A stretch of 64,000 nt of DNA, from positions 62,001 through 126,000 of the forward strand of contig CP133159.1 of the NCBI GenBank assembly GCA_030913385.1, in the 5' to 3' direction. This DNA comes from Cytophagaceae bacterium ABcell3. GTDB taxonomy: Bacteria > Bacteroidota > Bacteroidia > Cytophagales > Cytophagaceae. This document shows positions 31,690-42,508 of this stretch, in pieces. A model generated the notes under the pieces. The model was not told the origin of the DNA. It made no database searches and worked only from the letters and a program-made list of their open reading frames with translations. Position 1 is the stretch's first letter; every line of letters starts with the position of its first letter. A program made the position numbers and the translations under genes.

Positions 31690-32142
31690 TAATTTTAAAA
31701 TTTTAAGACTCTAAATATTGTCTTATAGACAAATTAAACACTAAGAAAGTTTTATGAGGTTTCAGGCTTGGGGGCATTTTTACCCATAAACACTAAAATC
31801 AAAGGTACAATATAACCCCTATTATACAAAGTAGGCCATAAGGGACTTTCAAAAGAAAAACCGGCCGAAAATTAATAAAAACAACATTAGAAATTAGTGA
31901 TTAATAAGTTACAACCCGTTAAGCAAACCACATTTTTTCACAAAAACAGGTTAGGTCAACCTAAATAAAGGCCAAACCGGCATTTGAAGCCTTATAAAGG
32001 AACGATAAGACAGAAAAAAATGTTACGGGGCAGCACCTCTGCTGGAAAAATATGCAGTGGCTCAACAAGTGGAAAAGATATAAATTCCCAGAAATTTAAT
32101 AAATTTGTTAAATTAAAGATTGTACTAGGGAAAAAGGGCTTT
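31690..32142. other. Intergenic region with a short palindrome
   Basis: TTAGGTCAACCTAA (31951-31964) is a perfect 6+6 inverted repeat that could bind a regulator of the downstream oxidoreductase. The open frame upstream of 32143 (from 31984) is basic and low in conservation, and is taken as untranslated. No other gene is seen. Confidence 0.45.
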
Positions 32143-33225
32143 ATGTATTCATACCGGAAACTTCTTAATTTCACAAAAGACATTTTTATCAAGATAGGCT
32201 GTAGCCCTGAAGATGCGAATCTGGCCTCAGAAGTATTGCTTTCTGCAGATTTAAGAGGGGTAGACTCTCATGGTGTGGCTAGGCTTAGCGGGTATGTCAG
32301 GCTATGGGAGGCCGGTCGCATCAACACAAAACCAAATATCCGAATAGTACATGAAACCCCTTCTACAGCAGTAGTAGATGCCGATGCGGCACTTGGATTA
32401 GTAGCAGGCCCTAAGGCCATGGCTATAGCCATGGGAAAAGCTGAAAAATGCGGTACAGGATGGGTGTCTGTAAAAAACTCTAACCATTTTGGCATTGCCG
32501 GATACCATGCTATGCTAGGCCTAGAAAAGGATATGATAGGCATGGCCATGACTAACGCAAGCCCTTTAGTCGCGCCAACTTATTCATTAGAAAGGTTATT
32601 AGGCACCAACCCTATTGCTATTTCCATTCCGGCAGGACAACAACCTCCCTTGGTAGTTGATATGGCGACTACAACAGCACCGAACGGAAAGTTGGAGATC
32701 TTGCAAAGGAAAAACTTAGAAGCGCCCACCGGATGGATACAAGACAAAGGCGGTCAAACATCTCTCAACCCTCATGAACTCAAAAACGGTGGTGCACTAC
32801 TCCCGCTTGGAGGAGACAGGGAGCATGGAAGCCATAAGGGTTATTGCCTCGGATCGGTAGTGGATATTCTCTCGGCTGTGCTTTCAGGAGCCAATTATGG
32901 CCCATGGGTGCCTCCGTTCGTAAGCTTTTTGCCTGTACAAGAAGATCCTGTAGGTGAAGGCGTTGGACACTTTTTTGGAGCAATGCGTGTAGACGCTTTC
33001 AGGCCGGCAGAAGACTTCCACAAGCATATGGATCATTGGATAAACAGGTTCAGAAATTCTGCGGCAGTAGAGGGCGAAAAGGTTCTAATTCCGGGAGACC
33101 CTGAAAGAGAAATATCTGCTGAACGTTTAAATAATGGCATCCCTCTTTTAGAGCCTGTTGTAAAAGACCTGGCAAGCCTCGGCCAAAAATTTTCAGTACA
33201 AGATTTGGAAGCAGAGCCTAGCTAA
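32143..33225 (+). CDS. Ldh family (malate/L-sulfolactate-type) oxidoreductase
   Basis: From ATG 32143 this is a 360-residue member of the YbiC/AllD NAD(P)-dependent family: R-G-V-D-S-H-G-V-A-R near 37-46 with the conserved His, D-A-D-A-A-L-G-L-V-A-G, V-K-N-S-N-H-F-G-I-A-G-Y near 112-123 with the catalytic His, and G-T-N-P-I-A-I-S-I-P. Known members oxidise malate, ureidoglycolate or sulfolactate. The frame is open 53 codons further upstream, but family proteins start close to the chosen Met. Substrate is not determined. Confidence 0.85.
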   Translation: MYSYRKLLNFTKDIFIKIGCSPEDANLASEVLLSADLRGVDSHGVARLSGYVRLWEAGRINTKPNIRIVHETPSTAVVDADAALGLVAGPKAMAIAMGKAEKCGTGWVSVKNSNHFGIAGYHAMLGLEKDMIGMAMTNASPLVAPTYSLERLLGTNPIAISIPAGQQPPLVVDMATTTAPNGKLEILQRKNLEAPTGWIQDKGGQTSLNPHELKNGGALLPLGGDREHGSHKGYCLGSVVDILSAVLSGANYGPWVPPFVSFLPVQEDPVGEGVGHFFGAMRVDAFRPAEDFHKHMDHWINRFRNSAAVEGEKVLIPGDPEREISAERLNNGIPLLEPVVKDLASLGQKFSVQDLEAEPS

Positions 33226-33843: not shown

Positions 33844-34185
33844 ATGGCCAAAATATACCATAATCCAAGATGTAGAAAAAGCCGTGAAGCATTGGCATTT
33901 CTTAAAGAACAGAACATTGAACCTGAAATTGTGGAGTACCTTAAAACACCTCCTACCAAAGAGGAGCTTTCTGAGGTCATCAACAAGTTAGGAATTAAAG
34001 CAGAAGACCTTATCAGGAAGAAAGAAGCCGTATACAAAGAAAACTTCAAAGGTCAAAGCCTCTCTGATGAGGAATGGATAGAGGCCATGGCACAAAACCC
34101 GGTTCTGATAGAAAGGCCTATTGTGATAAAAGGAGACAAAGCTTATATAGCCAGATCACAAGAAGCGTTGGAGCAAATCAAATAA
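33844..34185 (+). CDS. ArsC/Spx-family glutaredoxin-dependent reductase
   Basis: This 113-residue protein has the arsenate-reductase layout: H-N-P-R-C-R-K-S-R-E-A-L near the N-terminus with the single catalytic Cys (C10), E-Y-L-K-T-P-P-T near 32-39, L-I-R-K-K-E-A near 57 with one of the conserved Arg, and P-V-L-I-E-R-P-I-V near 86-94 with another. This matches the glutaredoxin-type ArsC family. Without other ars genes beside it the true substrate is unclear, though arsenate is reasonable. It is followed by a hairpin and the ABC exporter gene. Confidence 0.85.
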   Translation: MAKIYHNPRCRKSREALAFLKEQNIEPEIVEYLKTPPTKEELSEVINKLGIKAEDLIRKKEAVYKENFKGQSLSDEEWIEAMAQNPVLIERPIVIKGDKAYIARSQEALEQIK

Positions 34186-34225: not shown

Positions 34226-34263
34226 CATAGTCTTTCAGGTTATTATAATGCTGAAAGACTATG
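34226..34263 (+). promoter_or_regulatory. Perfect hairpin enclosing a start codon
   Basis: CATAGTCTTTCAG (34226-34238) is exactly complementary to 34251-34263, with a 12-base loop. The right arm ends in the ATG start of the ABC exporter gene (34261-34263), so in the transcript the start codon would be base-paired. The sequence may also be a DNA operator. Confidence 0.7.
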
Positions 34264-36453
34264 AACAACCAACAAATAATTCAAATAATAATCGAATATC
34301 AGCGGATATTCCACCATAAAGCAAGCATCAGTCCAGACTCATTTGAATGGGACCAAAAAGAGTATGCACCGGAGGAAATATCTGCTTTTATACAAGACTT
34401 AACCGAGGCAGGCAACAAACACAAGCTTGTCTTTTTACAAAATGACATTGATCCGGCAGAGTTTGAAGATTATTTAATTGACTTAGGCTTCCCGATATTA
34501 ATTTTTTTAAAAGAAAATGGCCATTGGGTTCCGGTGAGTATTTATTGCTATACGCGCCGAAATTGTAAAATCACTAAATACTACGGCGGGTCAAGGGAAG
34601 AGCTAAAACAAATACCTGCTACTTCAAGCTTACTTCAAGACTATAAAGGCAAGATAATCATGCTTGCCACTTTTCAATTTAATAGTCTGGTAAGCATGGA
34701 AGAGGAGGAAGTAGATACAGGCAAACCACTCACGCCGGTACAAAGGTTTTTTAAAATACTATCTGCCGAAAGGCGTGATATAACCTATATTTATTTGTAT
34801 GCAGTCTTTATAGGACTCATTGCATTGGTGCCTCCCTTGGGCGTACAGGCAATCATCAGTCAAATAGCCGGAGGGGTTCAAATCAATACCATTTGGATTG
34901 TCATCGGGATTGTTATTGTGGCGGTTTTGTTCAGCGGGGGATTACAGGTGATGCAATTGTTTATTGTGGAAATGCTACAAAGACGGGTTTTTACCAAGGC
35001 TGCATATGAATTTGCCTTTAGAATACCACGTTTAAAGCTAGAGTCTATACAAAAACACTATGCACCAGAACTCATAAACCGTTTTTTTGACATCCTCACC
35101 ATACAAAAAGGACTGCCAAAAATATTACTGGATATTTCGGCCGCAGCGTTGCAAATAGTATTTGGTCTTATACTGCTATTTTTCTATCACTTTGCATTCA
35201 TTGTATTCGGCATCATATTAATAATAGTTCTCTTGCTCATTTTTTATGTGAGCGGCCCCAAAGGATTAAAAACCTCACTACAAGAATCAAAGCATAAGTA
35301 TAAAGTGGTTTATTGGCTAGAAGAGCTCGCCAGGGCCTTAGACTCCTTTAAGCTGGCCGGAAACTCACCATTGCCAATCAGGCGTACAGACCAGAATGTA
35401 AACAACTATTTAGATTATAGAGAAAAGCACTTCAAGGTATTAATTACACAATACATTCATATAATATTATTTAAGACCATTGTCATAGGAGGTCTACTTA
35501 TCATAGGAAGTTTGCTGGTAATTGATCGTCAAATCACATTAGGGCAATTTGTCGCTTCTGAACTGATAGTGGTCATCATTGTAAGCTCGGTAGAAAAGAT
35601 AATCATGTATGTTGACATAGTCTATGATACCTTAACAGCGGCAGAAAAAGTCGGCAACGTAACAGACCTGCCTCTTGAAAAAAGTGGCGGTATACAAATC
35701 AAAGAGGTGATAGCCCAGGGCATGCACATAAAAATAAGAGACCTCAAATATAAGTATCCAGAAAACAAGCAGTACACATTAAATGGATTAAACCTGGACA
35801 TTCAGGCAAGTGAAAAAATTGCTTTGACAGGTGTTAACGGATCAGGGAAATCAACACTCATAAATATACTGGCTGGTGTTTACACAGATTTTGATGGTAT
35901 TGTAGCCTATAATAATATTCCCATAAGGGATATAGACCTGATGAACCTCCGCAGTGCTGTTGGTAGAAACATTTCATTAGAAGATATCTTTGACGGCACA
36001 ATTTTAGAAAATATCACTTTAGGGTTACCTGACGCAGGATATCCTGATGCTCTGGAAGCAGCAGAAAAAGTACGTTTATTGGACTTTATACAATCATTAC
36101 CAGAAGGGTTCCACGCCAATATGCTCAGTGGAGGAAGAAATTTTCCAGAAAGTGTAAACAACAAAATAATATTAGCAAGATGTATAGTCAAAAAACCAAA
36201 GCTCTTGCTCTTAAACAACTTCTTTAGAGATTTTGAAGAAGAAGAAAAAAAAGCGCTTCTGGACTTGATCATCAAATCTACCAACTGGACTTTAGTTGCC
36301 GTTACCAACGACCCTCTGGTGCAATCTGCTTGCGACAAGACAATAGTGATTGAAAACGGAAAAATTGAAAAAGAAGTAAAGAAAACCAGAAAAAAAACAA
36401 GTACTGGCAAAAGAACAGGCAGTAGAAGGAAAAGTAACAATAAAGACCAATAG
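34261..36453 (+). CDS. ABC exporter half-transporter with degenerate ATPase domain
   Basis: In this 730-residue protein the layout is that of a type I secretion exporter: an N-terminal cytoplasmic domain (1-170, in the position of a C39-like domain but without recognised catalytic residues), six membrane helices (about 175-460), then an ATPase domain. The Walker A loop is intact (G-V-N-G-S-G-K-S-T, 524-532) and the signature is L-S-G-G-R (622-626). However the Q-loop Gln is Ser (572), Walker B ends L-L-L-L-N-N so that both the Mg-binding Asp and the catalytic Glu are Asn (652, 653), and the H-loop His is Asn (683). It probably binds ATP but hydrolyses it poorly if at all. The HlyD-type gene follows 17 bases on. 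The last 25 residues are Lys/Arg-rich. Confidence 0.88.
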   Translation: MNNQQIIQIIIEYQRIFHHKASISPDSFEWDQKEYAPEEISAFIQDLTEAGNKHKLVFLQNDIDPAEFEDYLIDLGFPILIFLKENGHWVPVSIYCYTRRNCKITKYYGGSREELKQIPATSSLLQDYKGKIIMLATFQFNSLVSMEEEEVDTGKPLTPVQRFFKILSAERRDITYIYLYAVFIGLIALVPPLGVQAIISQIAGGVQINTIWIVIGIVIVAVLFSGGLQVMQLFIVEMLQRRVFTKAAYEFAFRIPRLKLESIQKHYAPELINRFFDILTIQKGLPKILLDISAAALQIVFGLILLFFYHFAFIVFGIILIIVLLLIFYVSGPKGLKTSLQESKHKYKVVYWLEELARALDSFKLAGNSPLPIRRTDQNVNNYLDYREKHFKVLITQYIHIILFKTIVIGGLLIIGSLLVIDRQITLGQFVASELIVVIIVSSVEKIIMYVDIVYDTLTAAEKVGNVTDLPLEKSGGIQIKEVIAQGMHIKIRDLKYKYPENKQYTLNGLNLDIQASEKIALTGVNGSGKSTLINILAGVYTDFDGIVAYNNIPIRDIDLMNLRSAVGRNISLEDIFDGTILENITLGLPDAGYPDALEAAEKVRLLDFIQSLPEGFHANMLSGGRNFPESVNNKIILARCIVKKPKLLLLNNFFRDFEEEEKKALLDLIIKSTNWTLVAVTNDPLVQSACDKTIVIENGKIEKEVKKTRKKTSTGKRTGSRRKSNNKDQ

Positions 36454-36470: not shown

Positions 36471-37832
36471 ATGCTTAACATATCACCGAGACGGGTAAAG
36501 GTCTTTTTTAAGAATCAACACCTTTCAGCACTGGAAGTCCTGAAGACTCCCAAATCCGTAAAGGCTTTTGGCAAATGGTTACTTATACTGCTGGTATTAA
36601 TTATATTGATCTTATTCCTTCCTTGGCAGCAAAACATTAGAGGAACAGGCCAAGTAACTGCTTTCTCGCCGAGCGACAGGCCACAAACGGTAGAAACAGC
36701 CGTAGCAGGCAGGATTGAAGAGTGGTATTTCAATGAGGGCGATTTTGTCAACAAAGGAGATACCCTTGTACGCTTTTCAGAAGTAAGTCAGGATTTTTTC
36801 GACCCGCGACTCATTGAAAGACTCGAAAACCAACTTGAGGCACTAAAAGAAGGTATACAAGCAAGAACGGAGCGTATTGAGGCTACAGAAGCACAGGCTG
36901 AAGCTTTAAGGCAAGAACTACAACTAAGGAAAAGTCAACAGCAAAATACGATAGAGCAAAATCGGCTAACGGTAATTAGCGACAGTGCGGAATTAGCAGC
37001 AGAAAGGGCTCAATTGGAAATAGCCGAGACCAGGTTAAACAGACAACTTGAGCTGCGAAGAGAAGGCCTAGCGGCAGAACGGGACGTGGAAGAAGCCAGG
37101 CTGGTTTTTGAGGAACGGCAAGCAAGGGTGGCAGAATTAGAAGCCCGGCTAGAGTCTTCAAAAAATGAACTTACCAACGCCAAGCTTCAGTTAAGCACGC
37201 TTGTGGCTGATTTTAATAGCAGGATAAATAACGCTTTAGCTGGACTAGGTCAGGCAAGGACAGATCTTGCCACAGCCAGAGAAGAGCTTGCCCAGCTAGA
37301 AACCCGCTATACCAATATGATTATACGGAGAGACCAGTTGTACTTAAGAGCACCTCAAAATGGCTTTATCGTACAAGCACAACGGGCAGGCGTTGGAGAA
37401 ACAGTTGCCGAAGGCGAGCCTCTCATGACCATTATGCCCGAAAACCCTTCGCTAGCGGTACAGTTATTTATAAGACCAATGGATATTCCTTTGATAGACA
37501 CCGGAAGACATGCAAGACTGGAATTTGAAGGATGGCCTGCTTTACAGTTTACAGGAAGACCCAATTTAGCAATTGGTACTTTTGGCGGAATAGTACAAGT
37601 AATAGACAGGGTAGAATCGCCGGAAAGAGGGGGTATGTTCAGAATACTAGTAACCCCTGACCCTGATGACAGGCCTTGGCCACCATTGAAAGTGGGATCG
37701 GGAGTTTATGGTTGGGTTCTTTTGGAAAATGTTCCTATATGGTACGAAATATGGCGTCAGATAAATGGTTTCCCTCCAGTGATACCAGAAGAAAGTTATG
37801 TAAATGTTGGGGAGGGACAAATCAGGAGATAA
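36471..37832 (+). CDS. HlyD-family periplasmic adaptor
   Basis: This 453-residue membrane-fusion protein has a short cytoplasmic N-terminus, one helix (about 34-50, L-L-I-L-L-V-L-I-I-L-I-L-F-L-P), a first half-lipoyl region (V-A-G-R-I-E-E-W-Y-F-N-E-G-D-F-V), a long Glu/Ala/Gln-rich coiled-coil hairpin (about 105-285), then the second half-lipoyl motif L-R-A-P-Q-N-G-F-I-V and beta-barrel domains. It should link the inner-membrane exporter to an outer-membrane TolC channel. It has GAGGGACAG-like purines ahead of the ATG and is the second gene of the exporter operon. No TolC gene is adjacent. Confidence 0.9.
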   Translation: MLNISPRRVKVFFKNQHLSALEVLKTPKSVKAFGKWLLILLVLIILILFLPWQQNIRGTGQVTAFSPSDRPQTVETAVAGRIEEWYFNEGDFVNKGDTLVRFSEVSQDFFDPRLIERLENQLEALKEGIQARTERIEATEAQAEALRQELQLRKSQQQNTIEQNRLTVISDSAELAAERAQLEIAETRLNRQLELRREGLAAERDVEEARLVFEERQARVAELEARLESSKNELTNAKLQLSTLVADFNSRINNALAGLGQARTDLATAREELAQLETRYTNMIIRRDQLYLRAPQNGFIVQAQRAGVGETVAEGEPLMTIMPENPSLAVQLFIRPMDIPLIDTGRHARLEFEGWPALQFTGRPNLAIGTFGGIVQVIDRVESPERGGMFRILVTPDPDDRPWPPLKVGSGVYGWVLLENVPIWYEIWRQINGFPPVIPEESYVNVGEGQIRR

Positions 37833-37834
37833 AA

Positions 37835-37885
37835 TGGAGAAGTAGAAACTTATTTTACCGTAAGGAAAAATCTTCTACTTCTCCA
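37835..37885. repeat. 13-bp inverted repeat between convergent genes
   Basis: TGGAGAAGTAGAA (37835-37847) is exactly complementary to 37873-37885; the right arm lies inside the last codons of the WG-repeat gene. It could end transcription from both sides, though it lacks a T-tract, or be an inverted duplication of the gene's tail. Confidence 0.55.
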
Positions 37886-39858
37886 CTCTTCATACAAATA
37901 AATGAATTATTGAATTTATCATAAACGATAAAGTCATATTCTATAGGAATAACAAAGTTTTCATTATAGTCCAGAATACCCCAATTGCCATCTCTTTCTA
38001 CCATCACAAACCCACCTCCAATATCTTCTATATAATCATATTTAGGAGCAAGTATTTCCGCCCCATCTAAGCCTGCCATGCCAAATTTCCCGCTACTCTC
38101 TAGCAAATACCTTCCAGTAACAGTAGAGGTAATTTTATCAAAGTGCTGCCTATGCAGTTCCTTTCCGTTTTTACCAACCAAATTCCAATTACCATTATAC
38201 TCAACTAAAGCTGCACCATTCTTATAAGGATACACAGAAGAGTAAAAAGGCTGTACTACAAACCGTTCCTCCTTATCTACAAATCCCCATTTTCCGTTAA
38301 TTTTAACAGCCGCATAACCTTCGGAGAAGTCCATGGCATCTGCATATTGGGGAGCGATCCAGATGTTGCCCCGATTATCGATAAACCCATGCTTCCCATT
38401 CCATATCATCCGGGAATACCCATTATTAAAACCATATATTCTTTCATATTTCTCACTTAGTTCCCATGTAAACCGCCCATATTTATTTACAATCCCGGTC
38501 TTCTTTCCTTTCGTTACTATAAAGCTTCCGTCTTCCCAAGGACCAGTCACGTTATCATAAACAGAGGCAATAAGCTCCCTCTTTGCAACAGGATCATACA
38601 CCCCCACCCCATCTGAAGATCTTACTAACAGGAACTCCTCGTTCAACTTTTCCACATGCTTGTATTCCCCTTTAGAAAAAACATAAGACTTTTTTCCCCC
38701 TGCCCCTATTCGCAGCATGCCACTAGAAAAATCTTCAAATTCAACAGGCTTGATGATATAGTTATCATCCCCGTCAATAATTGCGTCTAAAGGTTTATTA
38801 AGAGCTGAATAAAAAATGCGAACCTTTGCTTTACCGTCTTTGAAGTCCTCGGCATCCATATACCGAAAATCTATCAACTTTTTTCCCGATGCATCTATAA
38901 AACCCCAATACTTTCCTTCAAGGGTGGCAGCAAACTTTCCCTCACTGACATTGCGAATTTCATGGAAATAATGTGGCGCCATTAAATCCCCTTGGTGGCT
39001 ATAAAGTCCCCACTTTCCATCTTCATCAGCAGATTTAACCCTCAAGACCAGGCTGTCTATAATAATATCCTTAAAATCAGCAGGGACAACTACATTTCCA
39101 GTTAGGTCCACCACACCAGCCAAACCATTTTTAGTAACTTTTAATAACCCATATTCCGCTGCTTCGATTTTGTCATACTCATAGTGCGTCAGAAAATTTC
39201 CTTTGCTATCTACTAGGCCTGAATAACCAACCATAGAATAGACAAAAAGGCCAGGGCCCGCAGGAAGCAAACTATCTACCTTCAATTGAAACTTCTCTTT
39301 GTTTTGAGGGTTTCTTAAAGACCAAATATCAAAAGACTTTCCTGTATATTTACCTCCACCTTTGCTTTTAAGCCATTTGAACTCGAAGTCTTTCAACTGT
39401 TTCCCCTTGAAATCTATAATGCCCCACCGGCCATTTTTCTGTACCAGAATTTTACCTTTTTCTTCGAATCGAAAGTTATCATATTCATTATCTATAATCT
39501 TATTTCCATCTTTATCATAAAAACCCCACAACCCTTTTGAATTACAGACAGGAATAACACTTTTTTGAATATCATTGATGTCAGTAAAAGCAATAGGGAC
39601 AATTAAGCGCCCTTTTTTATCTACGACACCCCTCATGTTACCATTTCCAACAACGGCCATACCATGGCGGAAACCTTGATATATACTATCATAGGAAGGC
39701 TGAATGACAAAAACCCCTTTTTTGTTCACAAAACCCCATAGGTCGTCAGCCTCCTTAGGGGCAAGACCTTCGCTGTAAACCTCTTGGGCAGAAAGCTCCT
39801 GAAAGTTTATAACTACAGCTAGAAAGGCAACAAAAAAGAATTTCACAGGTGATACCAT
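37855..39858 (-). CDS. WG-repeat secreted protein, second of a tandem pair
   Basis: From ATG 39858 this 667-residue protein has a signal peptide ending E-L-S-A-Q, then an array of WG repeats (about 35-50 residues each, with W-G-F/L/I-x-D/N and K-G-x-x-x-x-x-x-Y/F-D), covering nearly the whole protein. WG repeats form beta-propeller-like or solenoid surfaces of unknown ligand. It follows its paralogue by 10 bases; a start at 39897 would overlap the paralogue and is less likely. The C-terminal ~110 residues align with the paralogue's, confirming duplication. It converges with the exporter operon. Confidence 0.88.
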   Translation of the reverse strand: MVSPVKFFFVAFLAVVINFQELSAQEVYSEGLAPKEADDLWGFVNKKGVFVIQPSYDSIYQGFRHGMAVVGNGNMRGVVDKKGRLIVPIAFTDINDIQKSVIPVCNSKGLWGFYDKDGNKIIDNEYDNFRFEEKGKILVQKNGRWGIIDFKGKQLKDFEFKWLKSKGGGKYTGKSFDIWSLRNPQNKEKFQLKVDSLLPAGPGLFVYSMVGYSGLVDSKGNFLTHYEYDKIEAAEYGLLKVTKNGLAGVVDLTGNVVVPADFKDIIIDSLVLRVKSADEDGKWGLYSHQGDLMAPHYFHEIRNVSEGKFAATLEGKYWGFIDASGKKLIDFRYMDAEDFKDGKAKVRIFYSALNKPLDAIIDGDDNYIIKPVEFEDFSSGMLRIGAGGKKSYVFSKGEYKHVEKLNEEFLLVRSSDGVGVYDPVAKRELIASVYDNVTGPWEDGSFIVTKGKKTGIVNKYGRFTWELSEKYERIYGFNNGYSRMIWNGKHGFIDNRGNIWIAPQYADAMDFSEGYAAVKINGKWGFVDKEERFVVQPFYSSVYPYKNGAALVEYNGNWNLVGKNGKELHRQHFDKITSTVTGRYLLESSGKFGMAGLDGAEILAPKYDYIEDIGGGFVMVERDGNWGILDYNENFVIPIEYDFIVYDKFNNSFICMKSGEVEDFSLR

Positions 39859-39868
39859 TGAAAGGATA

Positions 39869-42508
39869 TTATTTTTCGACTCCTTGTTCAAGAACAAACT
39901 TCTCTTTAAAACCTTTTTTCATTAATAAAAATTCACCTGACAGCTCATTGAAGTAAATATTGTCGTACTTAAGGTCAAAAACAAAGTTTTGCTCATAGTC
40001 CAAGACCCCAACTTTTCCATCTTTGCTTACGATTACCCCATGTCCTGTATCCTCAACACGATCATAACGGCAGTTAATCACTTCCCTACCCAAAGAATCA
40101 GCCAGGCCAAACTTGTCATTAAGGCGCAGCACCCAAGTACCTGTAGCAGTAGCCATCACTTCATGGTAAAAAGTCGAGTTTTGAAGTTTCCCTTGCAAAT
40201 CAATAAAATTCCACTTTTTCCCTTCCTCCACCTTTGCGACCCCTTCTGAGAATGAGGTAGCATAAGAATAACGAGGTTGGATAACAAACTTCTCGTCCTG
40301 ATCAATAAACCCCCATTTGCCATTCAACATTACCGCAGCCAGACCTTCAGAAAAATCCTGTGCAGAGTCGTACTGTGGAGAAACCCTAAGTCTACCTTTC
40401 ATATCCACATAGCCAAAATGCCTTCCCTTTTTTATACGGGCAAAACCTTCAGAAAAAGCAAACATTTCATCACCACCATGTTGGAATGAATAACGCCTAA
40501 CTCCCATAGCAGAAAAAACTACAGCTTCCTCTTTATAAACACCCACCACTTGACCATCATCATTTAAAGATAGATTGGAAAAATGGACAGGTTGGAGCAA
40601 ATTAAAACTAGTATCTGCAAGTTGAAACCCATCATCGGTTCGCAAACTTAAAAGATGCTCGTTCAACTTTAACACTTCACGAAAACCTGGGTGTTCATAG
40701 CAACTCTCACCAATGGACAAAAATTTGCCCATAGCTTCCAAACCTTTCCATTGATTACTATGATTGATAAAGCCATATTTCACTGAATCTTCCACCTCTC
40801 TACTTACCATTGCATACCCATTTCGGAAAGAGGAGGCCGTTCTAAACTGAGGTTCAATATAAAGGGAATCAGCTACACCCGCAAAGCCCCATAGCCCGTC
40901 TTTATGCTTAATATTTATATGTTTCCCAGACCAATTGCCAGCCTTTACATAATTGCCTTCAAACACCTTTTTACCGGCAGTGTCCACACATATCATATAA
41001 TCAGCAACACCTGTTCCAGAGGAAAAAGCCAAAAAATATCCCGTCGTATCATATTGAATAGATTGATAAGACAAAGGGAGCAAGAAACTACCTTTACTGG
41101 TCAAAACCCCATACTTTTTCCCCGATTGGACTAACAAAAAGTTAGGATGTACATTGGCCGACAAATCAGGCAGTGCTTTAATTTCTACCTGCTTAGACCT
41201 ATCACCAATATTTACCTGGTTCTTTAGGTACATAATGTAAATGTTTCCAGCAATTACCAAGCTGTCTGCATGATATATAATGGAGTCATTTTTTCCGGCT
41301 GAAACTTTCCACTTATTGTAATTAACAAGAACAATTTCATCTCCTTCTTCTAGAATATGGCTATACTTATGAGGTGCATCCATCTTGCCAGATAGCCCCA
41401 TTATGCCCCATTTCCCTTTATGCAAAACGGCCACATAAGTGCTATTTTCAAAAAACCTATATTGATCGAAACCCTCGTCTTGAACTTTTTTCCCATCAGC
41501 ACTATAAAACATCCATTGCCCCAGCTTATTTTTAACAGGAATAAGACCGTACATGATTTCTCCAGCTTCTGGGTACTCAAAAGGAACCACTACCCTGCCC
41601 TTTTTGTCAATTACCCCACAAAACAGTTTCCTTTCAGACTTCTTGCCTACAATAGCCAACCCATCCTTAAAAGTCCAAAACAGCTGGTCATATTTATCTT
41701 CAATTACTTTTTTCCCCTTATGGTTAACAAATCCAATTTTACCAGACTCCATAAAGCGTACCGCAGCCAATCCTTGAGAAAAGTCATAAACCTCAGAAAA
41801 ACCAGTTTTTGAAATAAGTTTTCCTTTTGCATTTACAAAGTTCCACTGCTCACCCGATTGCACTTTCATCAACTTTTCTGACGGTGCACCGATATAATCA
41901 AAAACAGGCTTGCTGAGTACTTTTCCTTTGCTGTTCAACAGGCCCCACAAATCCCCAGCTTTATAAGCCAAGAGGCCATCTATAAAGAAAGGTTGTTTTT
42001 CAACCGGCAAGTGTTCCGTATCGGGCCATCCAAGGCGGTTATATACAGGAGGGATCACAAACCTGAACTTTGTATCTATTACCCCCCATTTGCCTTCATA
42101 TTTTACTATAGCACGATCCGAAGAAAAAGACAAAGCCTCTTCGTAGACCAGATTACTGACCTTTTTCCCATCTTGATTGATAAAAAACCACCCAGTATCC
42201 AATTTTACAGCAGCAAACCCCGCACTAAAATCTCGTCCTTCAGAAAACCTTTCCGGGAAAGCATATTTCCCAGTCGAAGCCAAGTAAGCAACATAGTCCC
42301 CGCCTTTGCTTCCTGCCTTTACCCTTACCTTAGCCAACCCCTCGCTAAAAGGAGAAGCACTCAAGAACAAAGGCTTCACATAAAACTCACCGTCTTTATT
42401 CTTATATCCATAATAGCCATTTTCATTATAAGCAGGATGAAGGTCTTGAGCAAATCCCGAAGACAGCCCTGCCAAAATAAAGCAAGCGATTCTAAAAAAA
42501 CGTGTCAT
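39869..42508 (-). CDS. WG-repeat secreted protein, first of a tandem pair
   Basis: This 879-residue protein has a signal peptide ending S-G-F-A-Q and many WG repeats (for example E-G-K-W-G-V-I-D, D-L-W-G-L-L-N-S-K-G-K-V, N-G-K-W-G-F-I-D-Q-D). It is a longer version of the protein encoded next, with a shared C-terminal block. A middle segment (about 440-640) has less regular repeats. It is exported to the periplasm or outer surface. The pair may form a surface complex or act as ligand-binding scaffolds; no function is known. Confidence 0.88.
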   Translation of the reverse strand: MTRFFRIACFILAGLSSGFAQDLHPAYNENGYYGYKNKDGEFYVKPLFLSASPFSEGLAKVRVKAGSKGGDYVAYLASTGKYAFPERFSEGRDFSAGFAAVKLDTGWFFINQDGKKVSNLVYEEALSFSSDRAIVKYEGKWGVIDTKFRFVIPPVYNRLGWPDTEHLPVEKQPFFIDGLLAYKAGDLWGLLNSKGKVLSKPVFDYIGAPSEKLMKVQSGEQWNFVNAKGKLISKTGFSEVYDFSQGLAAVRFMESGKIGFVNHKGKKVIEDKYDQLFWTFKDGLAIVGKKSERKLFCGVIDKKGRVVVPFEYPEAGEIMYGLIPVKNKLGQWMFYSADGKKVQDEGFDQYRFFENSTYVAVLHKGKWGIMGLSGKMDAPHKYSHILEEGDEIVLVNYNKWKVSAGKNDSIIYHADSLVIAGNIYIMYLKNQVNIGDRSKQVEIKALPDLSANVHPNFLLVQSGKKYGVLTSKGSFLLPLSYQSIQYDTTGYFLAFSSGTGVADYMICVDTAGKKVFEGNYVKAGNWSGKHINIKHKDGLWGFAGVADSLYIEPQFRTASSFRNGYAMVSREVEDSVKYGFINHSNQWKGLEAMGKFLSIGESCYEHPGFREVLKLNEHLLSLRTDDGFQLADTSFNLLQPVHFSNLSLNDDGQVVGVYKEEAVVFSAMGVRRYSFQHGGDEMFAFSEGFARIKKGRHFGYVDMKGRLRVSPQYDSAQDFSEGLAAVMLNGKWGFIDQDEKFVIQPRYSYATSFSEGVAKVEEGKKWNFIDLQGKLQNSTFYHEVMATATGTWVLRLNDKFGLADSLGREVINCRYDRVEDTGHGVIVSKDGKVGVLDYEQNFVFDLKYDNIYFNELSGEFLLMKKGFKEKFVLEQGVEK

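Follow-up and report, generated by a model that had tools for sequence, protein, structure and literature searches.

The window considered here, a 64,000-nucleotide stretch of the genome of Cytophagaceae bacterium ABcell3 (contig CP133159.1, positions 62,001 to 126,000), encodes an ATP-binding cassette (ABC) exporter half-transporter in which all of the motifs of ATP hydrolysis (the Q-loop Gln, the LSGGQ signature, the Walker B Asp-Glu pair, and the H-loop His) have been replaced. Judged by their sequences, its relatives make up a widespread family of exporters with the ABC fold that have gone different distances toward losing the ATPase, and we are inclined, with some reserve, to regard the window protein as the inner-membrane component of an export machinery that is coupled to TolC and runs without ATP hydrolysis. 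ABC transporters are defined by the hydrolysis of ATP, and membrane-domain function without it has so far been argued from the engineered membrane domains of MsbA and LmrA (MsbA-MD and LmrA-MD). In this family, evolution seems to have disabled the ATPase time and again and, in one clade, to have discarded the nucleotide-binding domain (NBD) outright, with the adaptor and the outer-membrane duct kept, and these natural NBD-less exporters allow a direct test of the energy question. Routine annotation may also be misdescribing export systems in large numbers; several family genes are labeled “ABC transporter ATP-binding protein.” A literature search, with subscription journals mostly outside it, found no fitting description of such a family.

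The exporter gene and its domains lie as follows:

34261..36453, plus strand: degenerate ABC exporter half-transporter of 730 amino acids with N-terminal, six-helix transmembrane (TM), and pseudo-ATPase domains (open reading frame [ORF]; Pfam ABC_membrane and ABC_tran; AlphaFold2 mean predicted local distance difference test [pLDDT] 89.7)
34261..34710, plus strand: N-terminal domain, residues 1-150 (model pLDDT 92; weak C39 peptidase-like resemblance)
34729..35676, plus strand: transmembrane domain, residues 157-472, the most conserved part of the family
35560..35562, plus strand: the TM6 glutamate E434 (alignment of family rows and canonical exporters)
35722..36378, plus strand: pseudo-ATPase (nucleotide-binding) domain, residues 488-706 (Pfam, alignment, AlphaFold2 model)

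The reading frame is open throughout, without a single internal stop, and the fold of its product is predicted confidently, pseudo-ATPase domain included. The best PDB matches of the model include PCAT1, HlyB, TM287/288, and P-glycoprotein, MsbA is matched as well, and VIA-align gives Z of 28-30 over about 550 residues against ABCB1, MsbA, and TM287/288. Because the domain layout and this predicted structure match those of known exporters, the window gene can be said, on the strength of the model, to retain type I ABC exporter architecture and the ABC exporter fold.

Alignment with canonical exporters from the same genome assigned the ATPase motifs:

35830..35856, plus strand: Walker A, GVNGSGKST, intact, residues 524-532
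35974..35976, plus strand: Q-loop position, Ser572 in place of Gln
36142..36156, plus strand: ABC signature position, FPESV for LSGGQ, residues 628-632
36214..36219, plus strand: Walker B Asp and catalytic Glu positions, Asn652-Asn653
36307..36309, plus strand: H-loop position, Asn683 in place of His

An earlier note on this sequence had named four of these replacements (S572, N652, N653, and N683) beside an intact Walker A, exactly as the alignment has them, and its term “ATPase-dead” finds support at the level of sequence across the family. Its remark that the rest of the domain is well kept was mistaken: the signature loss escaped it, and the D-loop is gone as well (FRDF versus SALD). An LSGG at residues 622-625 is not the signature but aligns with GERG of other exporters. 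Because the Q-loop and the signature are lost too, it seems that the window protein could complete no ATP site of known type, whether homodimeric or shared in a heterodimer.

Relatives are common. At E ≤ 1e-60, a match was found in 71 of 98 genomes of relatives (the genome of the window included) and in 97 of 395 sampled genomes of the phylum; from those 97, 20 further loci were examined beside the ones fetched earlier, and the remainder were counted by score. In a scan of named genomes, 584 of the at least 593 pattern matches listed encode relatives. The best 80 of these at least 593 matches, which lean toward close, full-length relatives and include no NBD-less species, comprise 78 Bacteroidota (the orders given are Cytophagales, Flavobacteriales, Saprospirales, and Chitinophagales), one unclassified entry, and one metagenome-assembled genome (MAG) titled Gemmatimonadetes, in whose phylum 19 of 200 genomes, the MAG counted, gave a match. 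Plasmids of Persicobacter, Aureibacter, and Riemerella carry relatives, and a membrane-only relative used as query led to sphingomonad plasmids (14 of 21 records, from Novosphingobium, Sphingobium, Sphingopyxis, Sphingomonas, and Croceicoccus), six of which were examined. The Riemerella anatipestifer record (L204; NZ_CP081938.1), a 102-kb “plasmid,” holds murB, fabG, thymidine kinase, and rsmI genes beside the exporter operon and may be chromosomal.

Across this family the ATPase is broken in many ways. For motif, domain-identity, and tree-change counts we used rows below 90% membrane-domain identity (180 of 199 were kept, seven of them reference exporters), after dropping L065 (the same gene as L002) and L009-L012 (not exporters); the six sphingomonad rows were added to the motif and change-of-state counts. 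Counted with the Bacteroidia-type rows are three relatives carried on plasmids (L204-L206) and L198, which the tree places among Bacteroidia although its genome bears the label “same phylum”; “outer class” denotes the phylum of the window but another class, and “Gemmatimonadota” the phylum of the MAG. Among 133 Bacteroidia-type rows, the Walker A Lys is kept in 126, the Walker B Asp in 28, the catalytic Glu in 6, Asp and Glu together in 4, the H-loop His in 3, and the Q-loop Gln in 1; no row has all eight scored residues, versus 18 of 20 canonical control exporters. The commonest Walker B pairs in these rows are N-D (35) and E-D (28), and N-N occurs in the window protein alone, contrary to the expectation that all homologues would share it. 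Homologues mostly with D-E, which would have spoken for recent decay, were not what we found either. The four replacements recur as replaced positions, filled by different residues in different relatives. In the whole set of 192 family rows, which includes near-duplicates and some genomes entered by two routes, Asp stands at the catalytic Glu position in 117. The 15 outer-class Bacteroidota relatives keep the Walker A Lys (15), D-E (14), and His (11), with no Q-loop Gln; the 15 Gemmatimonadota rows keep the Walker B Asp (15) and His (14), with no Walker A Lys; and in all six sphingomonad rows the Lys, Asp, Gln, and His are lost and nearly every motif is gone. On the membrane-domain tree, changes of state, which may be gains or losses, number 8 for the Walker A Lys, 11 for the Asp, 12 for the Glu, 7 for the His, and 16 for the signature Gly; the trees are quick ones supported by the Shimodaira-Hasegawa-like approximate likelihood-ratio test (SH-aLRT) only, the reference exporters join them by long branches, and the Gemmatimonadota rows are placed differently in the two trees made. 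The replacements are more than chance, since they strike the same sites in every group of relatives looked at, and motif loss is a family trait, not decay, that differs between lineages.

The end point of this loss is an exporter with no ATPase domain at all. Ten loci (L058-L064 and L199-L201; four family codes, seven genus codes) encode the membrane domain alone, in 332-352 amino acids, and they form one clade (SH-aLRT 100) nested within full-length members. HlyD and TolC genes adjoin all ten, and the HlyD ORF starts at most 66 bp from the exporter stop, so there is no room for an NBD between the two. A canonical-NBD profile, which found the NBD in 5 of 5 control loci, matched none of the 303 ORFs (≥60 amino acids) of the ten NBD-less loci, a search that covered the loci and left the rest of the genomes unsearched. 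One genome (G087) has two copies, the membrane-only L064 and the full-length L056. Selection preserves the membrane domain, the adaptor, and the duct, the first two under strong constraint, and the ATPase is dispensable in part of the family.

Conservation has shifted in the same direction. Ordinary exporters conserve the NBD better than the membrane domain: the NBD was the more alike domain in 85 of 91 pairs among 14 orthologues of one canonical exporter from the window genome, and a comparison of seven different ordinary exporters gave the same result in all 21 pairs; among Bacteroidia-type members it was so in none of 8778 pairs (mean identity, 54% in the membrane domain and 35% in the NBD). 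In an alignment that included membrane-only rows (A1), every invariant column fell in the membrane domain, and one of full-length rows only (A2) added five in the NBD (G524, G529, G546, N584, and R640). In the 192 rows, N273, K283, and K346 never vary, and Glu stands at position 434 (E434) in 190, with K446 kept in 187 and E445 in 185; none of 20 canonical exporters aligned has Glu at position 434. By the predicted topology, E434 would lie about two turns into TM6 from its periplasmic start. The NBD is not free to drift, however. The ratio of nonsynonymous to synonymous substitution rates (dN/dS) for the family NBD could be computed for 50 of 87 close family pairs, in which it ranges over 0.02-0.40 with a median of 0.13 (the remaining pairs were saturated, one pair lacking the NBD). 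By these values the domain is no pseudogene remnant; it is constrained, though less so than a working NBD, for which 8 of 9 canonical exporter pairs gave 0.01-0.03.

The partners of the exporter point to export through TolC. Downstream of the window exporter lie the following:

36471..37832, plus strand: HlyD-type periplasmic adaptor of 453 amino acids, 17 bp after the exporter (HlyD_3/HlyD_D23; TIGR01843 107.7 bits, below the cut-off of 208.65)
37041..37076, plus strand: position of the TolC-docking (RLS-type) motif in the adaptor, R191..L195..A202, with Ser changed to Ala (motif definition from PMC3391258)

The HlyD partnership that the earlier note proposed is real: among 146 loci, selected for at least 3.3 kb of downstream sequence and with some genomes counted twice, 136 have an HlyD gene close to the exporter, 133 have TolC, and 60 have TetR, and at ten neither HlyD nor TolC lies within reach; all six sphingomonad loci have both. 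The docking motif of TolC-coupled adaptors is RxxxLxxxxxxS, and a MacA variant with the Ser-to-Ala change is reported to retain some activity (PMC3391258). By alignment of 188 family rows, the docking positions hold R in 158, L in 153, and S in 146, and 93 of 171 distinct adaptors carry the strict pattern when S or T is accepted at its last position, versus 39 expected from shuffles. Because the adaptors keep this motif, their coupling to TolC is likely real. At the window copy, HlyD is adjacent and the TolC and TetR genes are not. The same genome has a second copy, 41% identical to the window exporter, in a compact TetR-exporter-HlyD-TolC operon beside suf genes; this paralogue is itself degenerate, with its own set of replacements, and its operon could supply TolC to the window system. 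Kilobases from that operon, a transposase-like ORF (L065, 2044-3117, minus strand), presumably ISAs1-like, splits an apparent sensor histidine kinase gene. At three loci (L046, L066, and L072) the order is changed, and HlyD and TolC precede the exporter.

Another NBD-bearing ORF lies near the exporter at 13 of 160 loci, and seven were identified: six of unrelated kind, which we take to be UvrA (three times), an oligopeptide-type ATPase, an ABC-F protein, and SufC, and one exporter half. The last, at L120 (3937-5769, plus strand), is MsbA-like, carries LSGGQ, LDE, and AHR, and lies 141 bp upstream of the degenerate member on the same strand. The large NBD-bearing ORFs directly upstream at L192, L193, and L196 proved to be ordinary UvrA, and that at L166 an oligopeptide-type importer ATPase; at the first three, all outer-class loci, uvrA immediately precedes the exporter and shares its strand. 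Secondary SecA_DEAD ATPases, which have been connected with type I secretion-like proteins, were considered too but, as far as the available part of PMC4452313 describes them, do not concern this exporter family.

We posit that an exporter lineage ceased using its own ATPase and that the family now forms a three-part system, an ABC-fold permease dimer, an HlyD-type adaptor, and a TolC-type outer-membrane duct, often encoded beside a TetR regulator. The substrate would pass from the membrane-domain dimer to the adaptor and then to TolC without ATP hydrolysis; the remaining NBD would be at most a regulatory or structural remnant, which in full-length members such as the window protein, with its intact Walker A, may still bind ATP as a brake or trigger. 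More speculatively, an ion gradient could be the driving force and E434 a candidate coupling residue. Precedents come from MsbA and LmrA: NBD-less MsbA-MD moved ethidium when driven by a pH gradient (PMC4979069, in part), and LmrA shows ion-coupled transport that depends on the TM6 glutamate E314 (PMC6155054, in part). Tentatively, and with less conviction than we attach to hydrolysis-free export by the window system, we suggest that the family is a natural class of ABC-fold exporters, in Bacteroidota, Gemmatimonadota, and sphingomonads, converted from ATP-driven to ion-gradient-driven transport inside TolC-coupled machines, its lineages standing at stages from single lost residues to loss of the whole domain.

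Several observations weigh against transport without an ATPase. The coupling-helix segment ELxNRFF..QK, aligned to window residues 268-288, is kept in all ten NBD-less proteins. In ordinary exporters this segment contacts the NBD, and because it persists without one, another cytosolic partner may possibly dock there. The family NBD is under purifying selection and so, by that measure, still does something. The reversal of conservation is partial outside the Bacteroidia type, the NBD being the more alike domain in 24 of 105 outer-class and 11 of 105 Gemmatimonadota pairs, and the Lys, D-E, and His retained by the outer-class rows suggest that the ancestor may have been an ATPase. L120 is the sole case among the 160 loci that could be a heterodimer. 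As to ion coupling, the more speculative part, the grounds here are precedent and conserved charges; the six sphingomonad rows do not conserve E445-K446 or K405, and counting residues from the domain end gave an uncertain place for E434 relative to LmrA E314. MsbA is also a mixed precedent in the available text of PMC4979069: the full-length protein did not transport when its ATPase was impaired (delta-K382), and the NBD-less form, the only one of the two to work, did so less well than the wild type.

Among the alternatives, the one that survives best, though we consider it unlikely, is that ATP binding or release at Walker A, rather than hydrolysis, opens or closes the membrane domain, which would in turn pass substrate on to HlyD and TolC or sense a signal. 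The Walker A Lys persists in the great majority of Bacteroidia-type rows, the window included, the NBD fold is predicted with confidence and its sequence is under selection, and the ion currents of LmrA are triggered by ATP binding, not hydrolysis, in the part of PMC6155054 available; against this, the Lys is missing from all 15 Gemmatimonadota and all six sphingomonad rows, the domain itself is gone at ten loci, and the residues that would couple it to the membrane domain (Q-loop and signature) are lost. We give less credence still to an ATPase encoded elsewhere that would act in trans, powering the membrane domain by binding at its conserved coupling helices. The N273-R274 and K283 residues of the coupling helix, kept in 10 of 10 NBD-less proteins, would suit such a partner, but no NBD-like ORF lies at those ten loci (the search being of the loci, with the rest of the genomes unsearched), nearby NBD ORFs occur at only 13 of 160 loci and the identified ones are unrelated save L120 (six of the 13 are without identification), and in full-length members the cis domain would fill the docking site.

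An unconventional but active ATPase that has replaced its catalytic residues is very improbable. It would draw on the intact Walker A and on the Asp that so often takes the place of the catalytic Glu; yet the Q-loop, signature, Asp, Glu, and His are replaced jointly in the window protein, the substituting residues vary among relatives, and the whole domain can be lost. Harder yet to credit is a degenerate half of a heterodimer with its active half elsewhere, an option that the earlier note had raised. Exporters with one weak site exist, among them TM287/288, TAP, and TmrAB, which resemble the window protein in their degenerate catalytic site and appear among its fold matches. These transporters keep one full consensus site, LSGGQ included, to which the weak half lends its own complete LSGGQ, whereas the window protein, with FPESV, could not complete one: the signature it must lend is lost. 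L120, with its intact MsbA-like half, is a single case (an intact half stands in line upstream at 1 of 160 loci), the only close relative in the window genome is itself degenerate, no exporter half lies directly upstream of the window gene at the window locus, and of the other 19 matches in that genome the ten inspected are ordinary ABC proteins encoded outside the window. Recent decay or sequencing error can be set aside, since relatives throughout a phylum carry replacements at these very positions, the ORFs are open, and dN/dS is well below 1.

Export through HlyD and TolC without ATP hydrolysis, the reading that we favor, places the family beside several known systems. It resembles HlyB-HlyD-TolC type I secretion (also LssB and PrtD) in its exporter fold (8dck_A, TM-score 0.72-0.75) and in the pairing of an HlyD-type adaptor bearing RLS-type docking positions with TolC; in both respects it belongs with type I secretion and efflux systems. 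It departs from the HlyB type in that the ATPase motifs are lost, the NBD is sometimes wholly missing, a TetR gene often lies nearby, and no linked substrate gene was identified at its loci; the window exporter scores 184.7 bits against LssB TIGR03375 (cut-off, 693.1) and 141.4 against HlyB TIGR01846 (cut-off, 725.55), far below both. With MsbA-MD and LmrA-MD it shares an ABC membrane domain without a working NBD and carboxylates in that domain, but those proteins were engineered from ATP-driven parents, whereas the loss here is natural, old, and fixed, and stands beside HlyD and TolC. EmrAB-TolC may serve as a working analogy, a non-ATP permease joined to an HlyD-like adaptor and TolC, although EmrB is, in the excerpt of PMC8277102, a 14-TM protein of the major facilitator superfamily and the family permease has the ABC exporter fold.

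The N-terminal domain of the window protein stands apart from this argument. It is poorly conserved, with no invariant column in 28 rows (F43, P78, F82, and P91 are nearly invariant), and the conserved catalytic Cys and His of C39 peptidases were not found among these 28 domains. Foldseek gave nothing at E ≤ 0.001; an unrelated effector (6ii0) heads the rows, and the PCAT1 and ComA peptidase domains follow as weak matches with E from 0.03. Many relatives, with ORFs of 550-600 amino acids, lack the domain, which is probably dispensable for core function.

The flanks of the window operon hold genes of other kinds. A gene for an ArsC-family small protein (33844-34185, plus strand) ends 75 bp 5' of the exporter in the same direction, at the place where many relatives have TetR. 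Further upstream, an Ldh_2 (malate/L-lactate dehydrogenase) ORF (31984-33225, plus strand) opens with a TTG some 55 residues ahead of its domain, and its true start is probably further in. Convergent with the HlyD gene, and after it, two large tandem WG-repeat-like ORFs of 680 and 879 amino acids occupy 37855-42508 on the minus strand; the first of the two, the one scanned, has six WG_beta_rep stretches.

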